Origin: Spiroplasma syrphidicola EA-1
GTDB lineage: Bacteria > Bacillota_I > Bacilli_A > Mycoplasmatales > Mycoplasmataceae
Length of the DNA: 64,000 nt
Assembly (NCBI RefSeq): GCF_000400955.1
Contig: NC_021284.1
Coordinates: 434,001-498,000, forward strand
Direction of reading: 5' to 3'
Shown here piece by piece: positions 1-53,490 of this stretch. Position 1 is the stretch's first letter. Each line of letters opens with the position of its first letter. Position numbers and translations under genes: made by a program. Below the pieces are notes generated by a model. It saw only the letters and a list, made by a program, of their open reading frames with translations, was not told where the DNA came from and searched no databases.

Positions 1-73
1 ATATTTTGTAAATGATTCTCAAAAAAATTATAAAAACCTTGATTAATTTTATTAATTAAGCAATGATCAAACT
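1..73 (+). other. 16S-23S rRNA spacer, 3' part
   Basis: AT-rich sequence directly upstream of the 23S rRNA. The 16S gene is presumably just outside the window. No tRNA gene is present in this part of the spacer. Its last bases lie next to the 5' strand of the 23S terminal stem. Confidence 0.7.
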
Positions 74-2985
<2,912 letters not shown>

Positions 2986-3054
2986 AAGAACCCATTTACA
3001 AAATAAAAGATTGTTTATTATCTAGTTTTGAGAGGATAATTCCGCTCAGCATAA

Positions 3055-3161
3055 TCTGGTGCTTATGGCATAGTGGTCACACCTGTTCCCATCCCGAACA
3101 CAGAAGTTAAGCACTATTACGCCGACGATAGCCGCAAGGTGAAAATAGGGCAGTGCCAGGT
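3055..3161 (+). rRNA. rrf: 5S ribosomal RNA
   Basis: It follows 23S after a spacer of about 70 bp, the usual bacterial order. The conserved core CCCATCCCGAACACAGAAGTTAAG-type sequence lies at about 3092-3115, and the ends TCTGGTGC and GTGCCAGGT can pair. At about 107 nt it is short, as is typical in Mollicutes. Confidence 0.95.
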
Positions 3162-48180: not shown

Positions 48181-48230
48181 GCAATTTTTAAATATTATAG
48201 TATCATAAATATACAACTAAATAAGTAAAG

Positions 48231-48446
48231 AAATAATTGATGTTCGGGAAAAGAGTTAAAATCTCTTGCTGTCCCAGCAACTGTGATGTGGATGAAAGTT
48301 ACAATAACCATTGAAGGAATCTTTGAGAAGGGTAGCTAGTAAAAAGAAACTAAGCCAGGAAACCGGTCATTTATTTCATTAGAATTATGTTATTCCTGGG
48401 GAATGAATTACAGAGTTATTTAAATTATTATTTAAATTATTTTTTA
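48231..48446 (+). promoter_or_regulatory. cobalamin (B12) riboswitch with putative terminator platform
   Basis: The aptamer (48231-48376) shows the family's conserved parts in order: GGGAAAAGAGTTAAAATCTC, then GCTGTCCCAGCAACTGTGA (the invariant core), CCATTG in place of CCACTG, GAGAAGG, and AAGCCAGGAAACCGGTC. The ends pair as P1 (AAATAATTGA with TCATTTATTT). A hairpin TTCATT / AATGAA (48375-48407), in the place of the kissing-loop arm, overlaps the P1 3' strand. ATTTAAAT-TATT-ATTTAAAT (48418-48437) followed by a T run could be the terminator. It controls nrdFIE; elsewhere such riboswitches turn genes off when adenosylcobalamin is bound. Confidence 0.9.
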
Positions 48447-48554
48447 GTTTTAATAATATCAATAGATAATTTCCAAAAATTTTCAGCATCCCTAATTTTA
48501 GCGGTTGCTTTTTTAGTTGTAGACAATTTAATAAAAAGTTAGAAAGGAGATCTT

Positions 48555-49574
48555 ATGGCAAAGAAAAAGATATATTATGATGAATCAGTTTCTCCTTTTG
48601 AATATTTTCAAAATGGGATGCACGGTAAAATGCGGTCAGTTAATTGAAATGTTATTAATGATGAGAAAGATTTAGAAGTATGAACACGAGTAACCCAAAA
48701 CTTTTGATTACCAGAAAAAATTCCAGTTTCAAATGATTTAACATCATGACATAGTTTAACTACAGAATGGCAACAATTAATTACTCGCACCTTTACCGGT
48801 TTAACCCTATTAGATACAATTCAAGCAACGGTTGGGGACCCGGCCCAAATTGCTAATTCCTTAACTGATCATGAACAAGTCATTTATACAAATTTTGCTT
48901 TTATGGTAGCTGTTCATGCACGATCATATGGGACAATTTTTTCAACTTTATGTTCAAGTGAACAAATTAATGAGGCTCATGAATGAGTTATTAATACTGA
49001 AAGTCTCCAAGAACGAGCTCGCATTTTGATTCCATACTATTTAGGGGATGACCCTTTAAAGTCAAAAGTAGCGGCCGCCTTAATGCCCGGATTTTTATTA
49101 TATGGTGGTTTTTACTTACCATTCTTTTTATCAGCGCGAGGAAAATTAAGTAATACTTCTGATATTATTCGCTTAATTTTACGCGATAAGGTAATTCATA
49201 ATTATTATAGTGGTTATAAGTATCAAAAAAAGATTGCTAAACTATCTACTAGTGAACAAAAAGAAATGCAAGATTTTGTTTTCAAATTATTATTTGAAAT
49301 TTTGGCTTTAGAAGAAAAATATTTAACAGAACTTTATGAAGGATTTGGATTAGTTGAGGATGCCATTTGTTTTAGTCGTTATAATGCTGGGAAGTTCTTA
49401 CAAAACTTAGGTTATGAATCACCCTTTACCTCAGAAGAAACTCGGATTGCGCCAGAAATTTTTACGCAACTGTCAGCTCGTGCTGATGAAAATCATGACT
49501 TCTTTTCTGGAAATGGTTCTTCATACATTATGGGTTTTACGGAAGAAACCGCTGATGAAGACTGAGAATTTTAA
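48555..49574 (+). CDS. nrdF: ribonucleotide reductase radical subunit NrdF, metal-free VPK type
   Basis: 339 residues. Beta subunit that generates the radical for reduction of ribonucleotides by NrdE. Of the six metal ligands of class Ib NrdF, Asp87, His121 and His215 remain, but the three glutamates are replaced: Val118 (FMVAVH), Pro178 (LMPGF) and Lys212 (RDKVIH). This Val/Pro/Lys set marks the class Ie subunits of Mollicutes, which carry a DOPA radical and no metal. The radical Tyr is Tyr125 (ARSYG). AGAAAGGAG precedes the ATG. First gene after the cobalamin riboswitch. Confidence 0.95.
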
Positions 49575-49575
49575 G

Positions 49576-50037
49576 ATGAAAAATAATTTAAAAATAAAAC
49601 AACCGCAAGGGGAACCTTATGTTGTTTATTTTTCATCGACATCAAATAATACCCATCGCTTTGTTGAAAAATTAAAAATAAATAATAGTCGGATTCCAAT
49701 TGACTTAACAACACCTTTGCTAGTTAACAAAGACTATATTTTAATTGTTCCAACTTATGCGGCTGGGGGAAATGATTGTACAGGTGCTGTACCAAAGCAA
49801 GTAATTAATTTTTTAAATACTAAAGAGAATCGCCAATATTGCTGTGGGGTTATCTCATCAGGCAATACAAACTTTGGTGATACTTATGCAATTGCGGGAC
49901 CGATTATTTCTAATAAACTTAAAGTACCTTTACTTTATCAATTTGAATTATTAGGAACAAAAACTGATGTACAAACAGTACAAAACATTTTAAAAAAATT
50001 ATGACAAGAAGGGGAGAAGTATGACAAAGAAATTTAA
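49576..50037 (+). CDS. nrdI: NrdI flavodoxin-like activator
   Basis: 153 residues. The flavoprotein that supplies the oxidant to activate NrdF. FMN-binding pattern: YFSSTSNNTHRFVEKL, VPTYAAGGN and SGNTNFGDTYAIAG. It begins two bases after the nrdF stop, and its last 17 bp overlap nrdE, implying coupled translation. One TGA at about 50002 near the end. In metal-free reductases NrdI is needed to make the DOPA radical. Confidence 0.95.
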
Positions 50038-52174
50038 ATTAAATGATAAAGACATTAATGAAGAATACATTACCTTAAATGCCAGAACAAAACTTTTTGA
50101 AAAAGGGAAAGATAATTTTAAATTTGATCAGTTAGCAGCAGAGTCATATTTAAAAAATGTAATTATTCCTAACAGTAAAATCTTTGAGACTGTAACTCAA
50201 CGAATTAATTATCTTGTAGATAATAACTATTATGATAAGGATTTAATTAATCAGTATTCGATTACTGCAATTGAAGAATTAACAAAATTAGCACAAAGCT
50301 TTAATCATCGTTTTCCAAGTTTAATGGGAGCCTTAAAATTTTATAACTTTTATGCTTTAAAAAGTTTTGATAGCAAAGAATACTTAGAGAGTTATGAAGA
50401 AAGAGTTATTATGAATGCTCTATTTTTTGGCAATGGCAATATTGAAACTGCTAAAAAAATATTAAAACAAATAATGCTTGGTCGTTTTCAACCAGCAACT
50501 CCAACTTTTTTGAATGCCGGTAAACAACAACGTGGTGAATATATTTCTTGTTATTTATTACGGATTGAAGACAATATGGAATCAATTGCTCGTGCTGTTA
50601 CTTCATCGCTGCAGCTTTCCAAAAAAGGGGGAGGAGTAGCGTTATGTTTAACTAACCTAAGAGAGTTTGGCGCCCCAATTAAAAACATTGTTAACCAAGC
50701 AACTGGTGTAATTCCAGTGATGAAAATTTTAGAGGATTGTTTTTCATATGCTAACCAATTAGGGCAACGCCAAGGAGCGGGAGCAGTTTATTTAAATGCT
50801 CACCATCCTGATATTATCTTATTTTTAGATACGAAAAGAGAAAATGCTGATGAAAAAATTCGCATTAAATCTTTATCGCTTGGTGTAATCATTCCGGATA
50901 TTACTTTTGAATTAGCTAAAAAAAATGAACAAATGGCTTTGTTTAGCCCCTATGATATTGAAAGAGAATATCATAAACCAATGAGTGATATTTCAATTAC
51001 AAAAGAATATTATAATTTATTAAATAATCCAAACATTAAAAAAACATTTATTAATCCCCGTAAATTATTTCAAATGATTGCGGAACTACACTTTGAGAGT
51101 GGTTATCCATATTTATTATTTGATGATACTGTTAATAATCGCAATGCTCATCCCGGCCGAATTGTAATGAGTAATCTTTGCAGTGAAATCGCGCAGGTAA
51201 GTACTGCTAGTGAATATAATTCTGATTTAAGTTTTCAAAAAATAGGGGATGATATTTGTTGTAATCTTGGCAGTTTAAACATCGCCAAGATGATGGAAAG
51301 TGGATCAGAGTTTGCAGAGACAGTTCAATTAGCTATTGAAGCCCTTGATCATGTTTCGCGAAAAAGTGATTTATCTTCCGCCCCATCAATTGCCCAAGGG
51401 AATAAAAAAAACCATGCCGTTGGTTTAGGTGCAATGAACTTACACGGTTTTTTGGCAACTAATCATTTGTTCTATCATTCCCCTGAAGCAGTAGACTTTA
51501 CCAATATCTTTTTCTATACGATAGCTTATTATGCTTTTAAAGCTTCCAATCAATTAGCTAAAAAATATGGATCTTTTGCTAACTTTGAAAATTCAAAGTT
51601 TGCTGATGGTAGTTATTTTGAAAAGTATACTGCTTGTGATGAAAAAAAATGAACACCACAAACCGAAAAAATAATTAATTTATTTAAACAATACGATATT
51701 AAAATTCCAACCCAACAAGATTGACTTGATTTAGTCGAAAAGATAAAAAGCAGGGGGTTAGCAAATTCCCATTTGTTAGCAGTTGCACCAACCGGCTCAA
51801 TTAGTTATCTTTCTTCATGTACACCTAGTTTGCAACCAGTTGTAGATGCAGTAGAAGTTCGAAAAGAAGGAAAATTAGGAAGAATTTATGTTCCTGCTTA
51901 TCAAATTAATTTTGATAACATGGAATATTATACTTTTGGCGCTTATGAATTAGGTCCAGATCCAATTATTGATATTGCTGCTGCTGCCCAACAACATGTA
52001 GATCAAGCAATTTCATTAACATTATTTATGACTGAGAAAGCAACTACTCGTGACTTAAATAAAGCTTATATTCGAGCTTTTACAAAAAGATGTGCATCAA
52101 TTTATTATGTTAGAATTCGCCAAGAAGTTTTAGCCGATAGTGAAAATTATCAATGTGATGCTTGTGTAATTTAA
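50021..52174 (+). CDS. nrdE: ribonucleotide reductase catalytic subunit NrdE
   Basis: 717 residues, full length for class Ib/Ie alpha. Active-site Cys are in ISCYLLRIEDNME and the second redox Cys in NLGSLNIAK-type context (CCNLGSLN, 51256-51285). NLCSEI holds the thiyl-radical Cys, and the C-terminal pair CDAC that exchanges electrons with a glutaredoxin-like NrdH or thioredoxin is present. PTGSISYL is conserved too. GAAGGGGAGAAG precedes the ATG. Two TGA at about 51650 and 51722. No nrdH is adjacent. A terminator follows. Confidence 0.96.
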
Positions 52175-52302: not shown

Positions 52303-52409
52303 TATAATAGCAAATTAAAGGGTCAGAGAAGACCGAATAAAAAAAGTGGTTGTTGTAAAACCCATATTTTATAAGCATTCTAGAAGACTGAAATCATTCA
52401 GTCTTTTTT
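52303..52409 (+). ncRNA. possible short transcript with own terminator
   Basis: TATAAT at 52303-52308 (no clear -35) is followed by about 95 nt ending in a strong hairpin AAGACTGAA-ATCA-TTCAGTCTT plus T6 (52383-52409). GGTC-AGAGAA-GACC forms a small 5' stem. There is no ribosome site or ORF. It may be a small RNA or the end of a lost gene. Confidence 0.35.
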
Positions 52410-52421
52410 ACTGCTTAAATT

Positions 52422-52560
52422 GTATATACACTAAATTCTTGGGATTAGCTAAAGCACTTAATTATCGATATGTTCCTATTGATAATCTCCTTTCTGATTG
52501 AGTCCATTTAGAATCTTACAAATAATAATATGGTTAGTCTCAAGAATTTAGTGTATATAC
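52422..52560. mobile_element. 139-bp MITE-like element with 20-bp perfect inverted ends
   Basis: GTATATACACTAAATTCTTG at 52422-52441 is the exact complement of the sequence at 52541-52560. The 99 bp between carry no full gene; on the minus strand a short stretch with AGAAAGGAG could be the start of a lost transposase. No clear target-site duplication is seen. It lies between the nrd operon and the conjugative element. Confidence 0.6.
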
Positions 52561-52902
52561 GTTGAAGGGAAGTGCAACAGGAACATTACTTTTTTAATAT
52601 TTTATATGATTAATATTTGGTAACTTTAATAATTATTAATAAATTAGATAATTTATTTTTCACTTGTATTTCACCTCATTTCATATTGAAAATTGTTCTT
52701 TACCAAATAATTAGTCATATAAAATTAAATATAAAATTAAATATAACTATAAACATGTGTCAAAAAGTCAGTTACAAACTATATTAAATATTAACAACTA
52801 TTATTGTTTTATTATTGTTTTATTAAAACAATATTTTATGCGCGCAATTTCAAAATTAAACATATCAAGCTTTAAAAATTAGGACGAAAGGAGTGCCTAA
52901 TT
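52561..52902. other. AT-rich intergenic region at the element boundary
   Basis: No gene is seen. It holds two direct copies of ATAAAATTAAAT (52717-52740) and a palindrome ATTGTTTTATTAAAACAAT near 52815-52835, followed by the GAAAGGAG site of the small ORF at 52903. These could belong to a replication or transfer origin, but nothing decisive is visible. Confidence 0.4.
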
Positions 52903-52965
52903 ATGAAAAGTGTTTTTTATTGCGTAAATTTTGATTTTTTCCCCTGGCGACACATCAATGATTAA
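52903..52965 (+). CDS. possible 20-residue leader peptide or remnant
   Basis: MKSVFYCVNFDFFPWRHIND with a strong GAAAGGAG site ten bases before the ATG. A 28-codon frame (52980-53066) with three TGA Trp follows without a site and may be the rest of a broken gene. I recognise neither. Confidence 0.3.
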   Translation: MKSVFYCVNFDFFPWRHIND

Positions 52966-53076
52966 AAACAAAGATTTTTATGTTGATTAAAAAACAGTGA
53001 GTGGGTGTTGCTGAAAAAATCAGTGATTCCAATCAGTGACAACAACATTGATTGGGGCTTAGTTAGGAGTTTTAAC

Positions 53077-53490
53077 ATGGCAAAGAATATTTACAATCTA
53101 TACATACTAAATTCTGAAATTTATCATCGTTTAGAAAATAAACAGGGTAAAGTAATAGGATATTTCATAAATAATCCATGTGTTAATTGTGTTAATTTGG
53201 AAGTATTTTATGTAAAAGCTAATTGAGTTTTTAATGATGAAGGATTTGCCAATTGTTTAACGGTAGGAATTAGCGATGTTAATTTATATCCAATATTTTT
53301 AAAAACAGATCTGCAAAACTTAAAAGACTATAAACCAGGTAGTGAAATTATTAAAAATTTCATTTCTTCAAATAGTAAAAAACAAAATACAATTAATGAA
53401 TTTCATCAAATGTATCAAAAAACAAATAGTTCTTTAAATAATACAAAAATAGATACAGAGCAATTATTAAAAGATTTAGAAAGTCTGTAG
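53077..53490 (+). CDS. element-encoded protein of unknown function
   Basis: 137 residues. TAGGAG lies eight bases before the ATG; frames starting upstream lack a site. One TGA Trp at 53224. No membrane segment. The C-terminal 40 residues are Asn/Lys/Ser-rich and polar. C-x2-C in NNPCVNCVN is the only motif-like feature. First of a set of closely spaced genes (next start 17 bp downstream). Confidence 0.7.

Follow-up and report, generated by a model that had tools for sequence, protein, structure and literature searches.

Why does a cobalamin riboswitch stand in front of nrdFIE, the operon of a B12-independent ribonucleotide reductase, in a Spiroplasma? A sequence-only reading of the window (the 64,000-nucleotide stretch of DNA analysed here) had placed such an RNA at 48231-48446, and had argued that its presence implied corrinoid uptake and probably a B12-dependent counterpart elsewhere in the genome, or else a relic or a sensor of another corrinoid. 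We consider it highly probable that the element is a genuine cobalamin riboswitch which would switch nrdFIE off when adenosylcobalamin (AdoCbl) is available. The features read from the sequence that point this way are the aptamer, its kissing loop, an alternative pairing of L13, a complete NrdJ, BtuR and an uptake operon headed by a riboswitch of its own.

The aptamer and the class Ie operon behind it

The search with the RF00174 covariance model proposed by that reading returned a match at 48221-48385 (+), which spans model positions 1-189 of 189 and scores 81.7 bits (E 1.5e-18), above the gathering threshold of 31.5. The family call was thus borne out, with all four expected motifs in place (at 48268, 48308, 48325 and 48352), the B12-box motifs and P7-P11 extension complete, and an L5-L13 kissing loop (UCCCAG/CUGGGG) readable and covarying across loci. 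The interval first given for the element takes in both aptamer and P13/L13 hairpin and ends short of the terminator-like hairpin at 48485-48509. Full-length model match, conserved core motifs and kissing loop are those of an RF00174 class I cobalamin riboswitch; unlike the known family, the present example lies in Mollicutes.

48221..48385, +: cobalamin riboswitch aptamer of the full-length class I type with P7-P11 extension (RF00174 covariance match)
48268-48286, +: motif GCTGTCCCAGCAACTGTGA (from sequence)
48272..48277, +: L5 loop UCCCAG, forming the kissing loop with L13 (position from the RF00174 alignment; pairing and covariation)
48308-48313, +: motif CCATTG (from sequence)
48325-48331, +: motif GAGAAGG (from sequence)
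48352-48364, +: motif AAGCCAGGAAACC (from sequence)

The aptamer ends about 170 nt before the start of nrdF, and the B12-independent reductase operon follows directly downstream. The position before nrdFIE was likewise confirmed by family models, all matching on the plus strand:

48555..49574, +: nrdF, R2 subunit of class Ie type with V118, P178 and K212 (TIGR04171, 409.7 bits; NF010572, 604.4 bits)
49576..50037, +: nrdI, flavoprotein activator (TIGR00333, 178.1 bits, cut-off 74.65)
50021..52174, +: nrdE, catalytic R1 subunit (TIGR04170, 972.5 bits, cut-off 750)

A single base separates nrdF from nrdI, and nrdI and nrdE overlap on the same strand; a single transcript is therefore likely. In NrdF, three metal-binding glutamates are replaced by V118, P178 and K212, and these VPK residues occur in all 55 NrdF proteins compared. 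Reductases of the VPK type are metal-free and carry a DOPA radical formed with the help of NrdI (PMC11846895). Judged by these residues, the regulated enzyme is of the metal-free class Ie and not an ordinary class Ib reductase; the class Ib name was considered for NrdF and dropped because the metal ligands are replaced. The nearest solved relative is the Mesoplasma florum class Ie subunit (6GP2; PMC11846895), which shares the V/P/K substitutions and an operon with nrdI. Unlike the Mesoplasma system, the Spiroplasma nrdFIE stands under a cobalamin riboswitch, with NrdJ encoded in the same genome.

Leader pairings and putative transcription termination

Between aptamer and nrdF, the leader contains the parts expected of a switch:

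48389..48411, +: P13 hairpin, conserved 3' of the aptamer in relatives, with L13 starting CUGGGG (48396-48401)
48397..48407, +: putative antiterminator 5' half (L13/P13 segment), partner 48482-48494 (duplex -10.5 kcal/mol)
48485..48514, +: terminator-like hairpin with an imperfect stem (48485-48509; -7.4 kcal/mol) plus U-run, then the conserved TTTTTAGT
48543..48550, +: probable ribosome-binding site AAAGGAGA (from sequence)

Control through the L13 kissing loop is established for the cobalamin riboswitch family (PMC9600662). L13 has two possible partners in the window, L5 and the 5' arm of the terminator-like hairpin, and the second pairing, as an alternative to the first, points to an OFF switch that works by attenuation of transcription. 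The pairing of 48397-48407 with 48482-48494 also appears in the ligand-free minimum-free-energy fold of 48386-48545 (the leader without the aptamer); the centroid fold of the same segment has the terminator hairpin instead.

Among nine representative loci, cognate pairings were stronger than those of permuted partners, both for L13 with the terminator (P 0.0012) and for L13 with L5 (P 0.0099), in a test for which the terminator hairpins were chosen after inspection and the relatedness of the loci was ignored. The two loops also covary across loci (UCCCAG/CUGGG, UACCAG/CUGGU and UCCUAG/CUAGG), in a set that leaves out automatic mis-picks, namely L5 (AAAAAG) of the salvage-operon loci described below and L13 of a few others, those loops having been read separately. 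Taken together, the leader pairings support, without proving, an AdoCbl-induced termination before nrdF.

We propose that in the absence of AdoCbl L13 would pair with 48482-48494 and block the terminator, so that nrdFIE would be transcribed and dNTPs would come from the O2-dependent, metal-free class Ie enzyme. When AdoCbl is present, L13 would dock on L5, the hairpin at 48485-48509 would form, transcription would stop before nrdF and NrdJ would take over.

It is conceivable that the RNA binds AdoCbl and acts on translation or mRNA stability rather than on termination: the hairpin of the window is imperfect and was missed by a strict pattern scan, and the ribosome-binding site lies about 30 nt downstream. 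However, the centroid fold contains no anti-RBS pairing, and the other nrdF leaders also carry T-run hairpins at equivalent positions between aptamer and nrdF, together with L13-terminator complementarity, and we regard control at a later stage as distinctly unlikely. In two relatives (G166 and G169) the leader hairpin is weak (-2.1 kcal/mol).

A B12 circuit elsewhere in the genome

The 1,107,344-bp genome has three RF00174 sites. The strongest, at C1:789633-789818 (107.9 bits), is followed by genes for a membrane-anchored protein of 163 aa and a membrane protein of 211 aa, and nrdJ lies convergent to this operon, just past a ribA-like gene. Two further genes complete the set of partners:

C1:791752-794280: nrdJ, class II AdoCbl-dependent reductase of 844 aa (NF005991, 1322 bits, cut-off 854)
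C1:943482-944009: BtuR/CobA, corrinoid adenosyltransferase (PF02572, 147.6 bits)

NrdJ aligns with the B12-dependent reductase of Thermotoga (1XJE) across the active-site segments and keeps the cysteine-rich C-terminal tail. The class II reductase that the earlier reading had expected elsewhere is thus present. Its prediction of corrinoid uptake was also supported, with a riboswitch-headed operon for transcobalamin-like and ECF S-like proteins next to nrdJ, plus BtuR/CobA and EcfT. The genome search it had suggested, for nrdJ and corrinoid ECF transporters, thereby recovered nrdJ, the ECF S-like protein and EcfT, and with the counterpart in hand its fallback of a relic or another corrinoid is unneeded here.

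Modelled with a mean pLDDT of 83, the 163-aa protein matches the beta domains of transcobalamin, intrinsic factor and haptocorrin (Foldseek E about 1e-5). All of its first 19 Foldseek hits are B12 carriers from vertebrates, except for one bacterial protein that shares the fold, and VIA gave Z values of 11-14 to B12-carrier beta domains, with the next unrelated rows near 6. The protein is accordingly predicted to adopt the transcobalamin/intrinsic-factor beta-domain fold, a shared fold being no proof of B12 binding. It resembles these domains and DUF4430 in predicted fold and differs from them in its membrane anchor and low sequence identity (12-21%); Pfam DUF4430 itself was reached weakly, by one relative alone (15.6 bits). 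Relatives of the 211-aa protein stand behind riboswitches in other genera, one of which matches an ECF S component weakly (15.3 bits, under the cut-off), and the protein looks like an ECF S component.

The third riboswitch (78.7 bits; L005:6158-8411) precedes genes for an ABC-2-like permease (weak match), a 329-aa lipoprotein and a 121-aa membrane protein, which are conserved in relatives and may encode a second corrinoid transporter. The lipoprotein has many invariant aromatic residues, and its model (mean pLDDT 77) gave no significant Foldseek match. Neither Pfam nor NCBIfam had a significant match to this lipoprotein, to the ECF S-like protein or to the 163-aa protein.

Searches of this genome found no PF02310 B12-binding protein and no NrdD, and NrdJ is therefore the sole B12 user seen; no other B12-dependent enzyme was recognised, and no other reductase here is expected to function without oxygen. 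Because a B12-dependent reductase is also encoded in the genome, the metal-free enzyme is probably the one shut off under B12. Since NrdF is of the VPK type, the switch would choose between an oxygen-dependent, metal-free and a cobalt-dependent, oxygen-independent route to DNA precursors, and the B12 of the host would decide between them. Such a complete uptake-and-use circuit was unexpected in a tiny, insect-associated, reduced lineage; import, adenosylation and sensing of B12 appear to be retained for one enzyme.

The riboswitch could also respond to another corrinoid, or to hydroxo- or methylcobalamin instead of AdoCbl, for several corrinoids are acceptable to cobalamin riboswitches (PMC9600662). 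Nevertheless, AdoCbl fits the full-length class I architecture and a genome that encodes BtuR and an AdoCbl-dependent enzyme, and a different ligand seems to us unlikely.

Intact, eroded and lost riboswitches in relatives

Across the order, RF00174 matches were found in 43 of 320 genomes, 35 of them above cut-off; within the genus itself, matches occur in 13 of 14 genomes. A match lies directly upstream of nrdF in 15 genomes (among 63 site neighbourhoods) and in a sixteenth, G314, and 15 of these 16 encode nrdJ, whole or broken (broken, for example, in G315 and G316). Within the family (60 genomes), nrdF is present in 40, nrdJ in 20 and both in 10. An nrdF riboswitch above cut-off occurs in eight of the ten with both reductases, none having been found in the other two (G179 and G209). 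Among the 30 family genomes with nrdF and without intact nrdJ, a full one above cut-off occurs in none, or in one if G195 is counted, whose partial riboswitch passes the cut-off and whose nrdJ is a pseudogene. The association of nrdF riboswitch with nrdJ (Fisher P 5e-6, G195 counted against it) and that of intact BtuR with nrdJ (20 of 20 nrdJ genomes against 1 of 40 others, P 5e-15) are optimistic as P values because the species are related; on the NrdF tree, the state with both reductases requires at least five changes. No PduO-type adenosyltransferase was found in the 60 genomes. In G195 (L137, G195:C2:111000-121500), nrdJ, uptake genes, BtuR, nrdFIE and two partial riboswitches are clustered within 10 kb, with nrdJ and BtuR in joint decay.

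A search with R1, a model made from nrdF leaders, recovered shortened copies upstream of nrdF in six genomes (G183, G184, G188, G189, G190 and G192; loci L119, L120, L124, L125, L126 and L128; 44.8-67.4 bits), in which neither nrdJ nor BtuR was found. All six leaders lack the CCATTG...GAGAAGG arm, and five have GCACCTG in place of GCAACTG. Erosion affects the ligand core, whereas the L13 hairpin, the terminator and the antiterminator segment hardly vary; the ligand of the shortened leader in these nrdJ-less relatives may therefore have changed or been lost. Short copies resembling AdoCbl-II, below the AdoCbl-II threshold, precede nrdF in G067, which has nrdJ, and in G071, which has an nrdJ fragment; G067 shows a joint change of the kissing bases (UCUUAG/CUAAGG).

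These eroded copies would fit a relic that has lost cobalamin sensing in the window as well, as in some nrdJ-less relatives. So would the presumed sister species (G164, 1,123,322 bp), which has neither nrdFIE nor its riboswitch at the corresponding site and in which a 69-bp remnant of nrdE (78% identity, nucleotide E 8.6e-10) indicates that the locus was lost. In the window, by contrast, motifs and P7-P11 are intact and the score is far above cut-off. The relic reading was set aside because the B12 partners (NrdJ, BtuR and the uptake genes) are all in the genome, and it is in our judgement very improbable. The relatives thus form a natural series in which the riboswitch is intact, eroded or lost, tied to loss of the B12 enzyme.

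Other routes to dNTPs carry the same element. In G166 (L059, G166:C1:164678-172848) a cobalamin riboswitch precedes class III nrdD and its radical-SAM activator, and the nrdD fragments of G169 have a partial riboswitch upstream. Nine genomes of the genus carry a riboswitch ahead of an operon (or what remains of it) for nucleoside phosphorylase, deoxynucleoside kinase, transketolase, a KDPG-type aldolase and a probable nucleoside deoxyribosyltransferase (L063 of G173; equivalents L060, L062, L070, L073, L079, L091, L093 and L094). A role in deoxynucleoside salvage is probable from these protein families. Neither nrdJ nor nrdF had a match in five of the nine genomes. The deoxyribosyltransferase family PF05014 was not found in the genome of the window, the salvage alternative being a feature seen in relatives. 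It is possible, and we suggest it tentatively, that in Spiroplasma and its neighbours cobalamin riboswitches govern the whole dNTP supply (class Ie nrdFIE, class III nrdDG and, in the clade around the genus, the salvage operon), and that the shortened leaders of some nrdJ-less relatives have changed or lost their ligand.

There is a precedent for a B12 riboswitch upstream of a B12-independent reductase where NrdJ is also encoded: according to Borovok 2006, as cited in PMC4991794, Streptomyces coelicolor has one before its class I operon nrdABS and also has class II NrdJ. As described there, nrdABS is of class Ia, whereas the Spiroplasma nrdFIE appears to be of the metal-free class Ie, in a genome of ~1.1 Mb with NrdJ as the sole recognised B12 enzyme. 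The open-access literature searched, outside which most subscription papers fall, held no paper joining Spiroplasma with a cobalamin riboswitch, and automatic annotation may already flag the element. As far as shown by that literature, the lineage, the class Ie target and the reach into deoxynucleoside salvage and a wider dNTP-supply regulon would be new.

Two further features of the window lie outside the operon. The segment at 52330-53400, downstream of nrdE, recurs at several places in G164 with 83-95% identity, and is thus probably a repeated element that is mobile or derives from a phage. Genes for 23S and 5S rRNA occupy 73-3161, at the start of the window.
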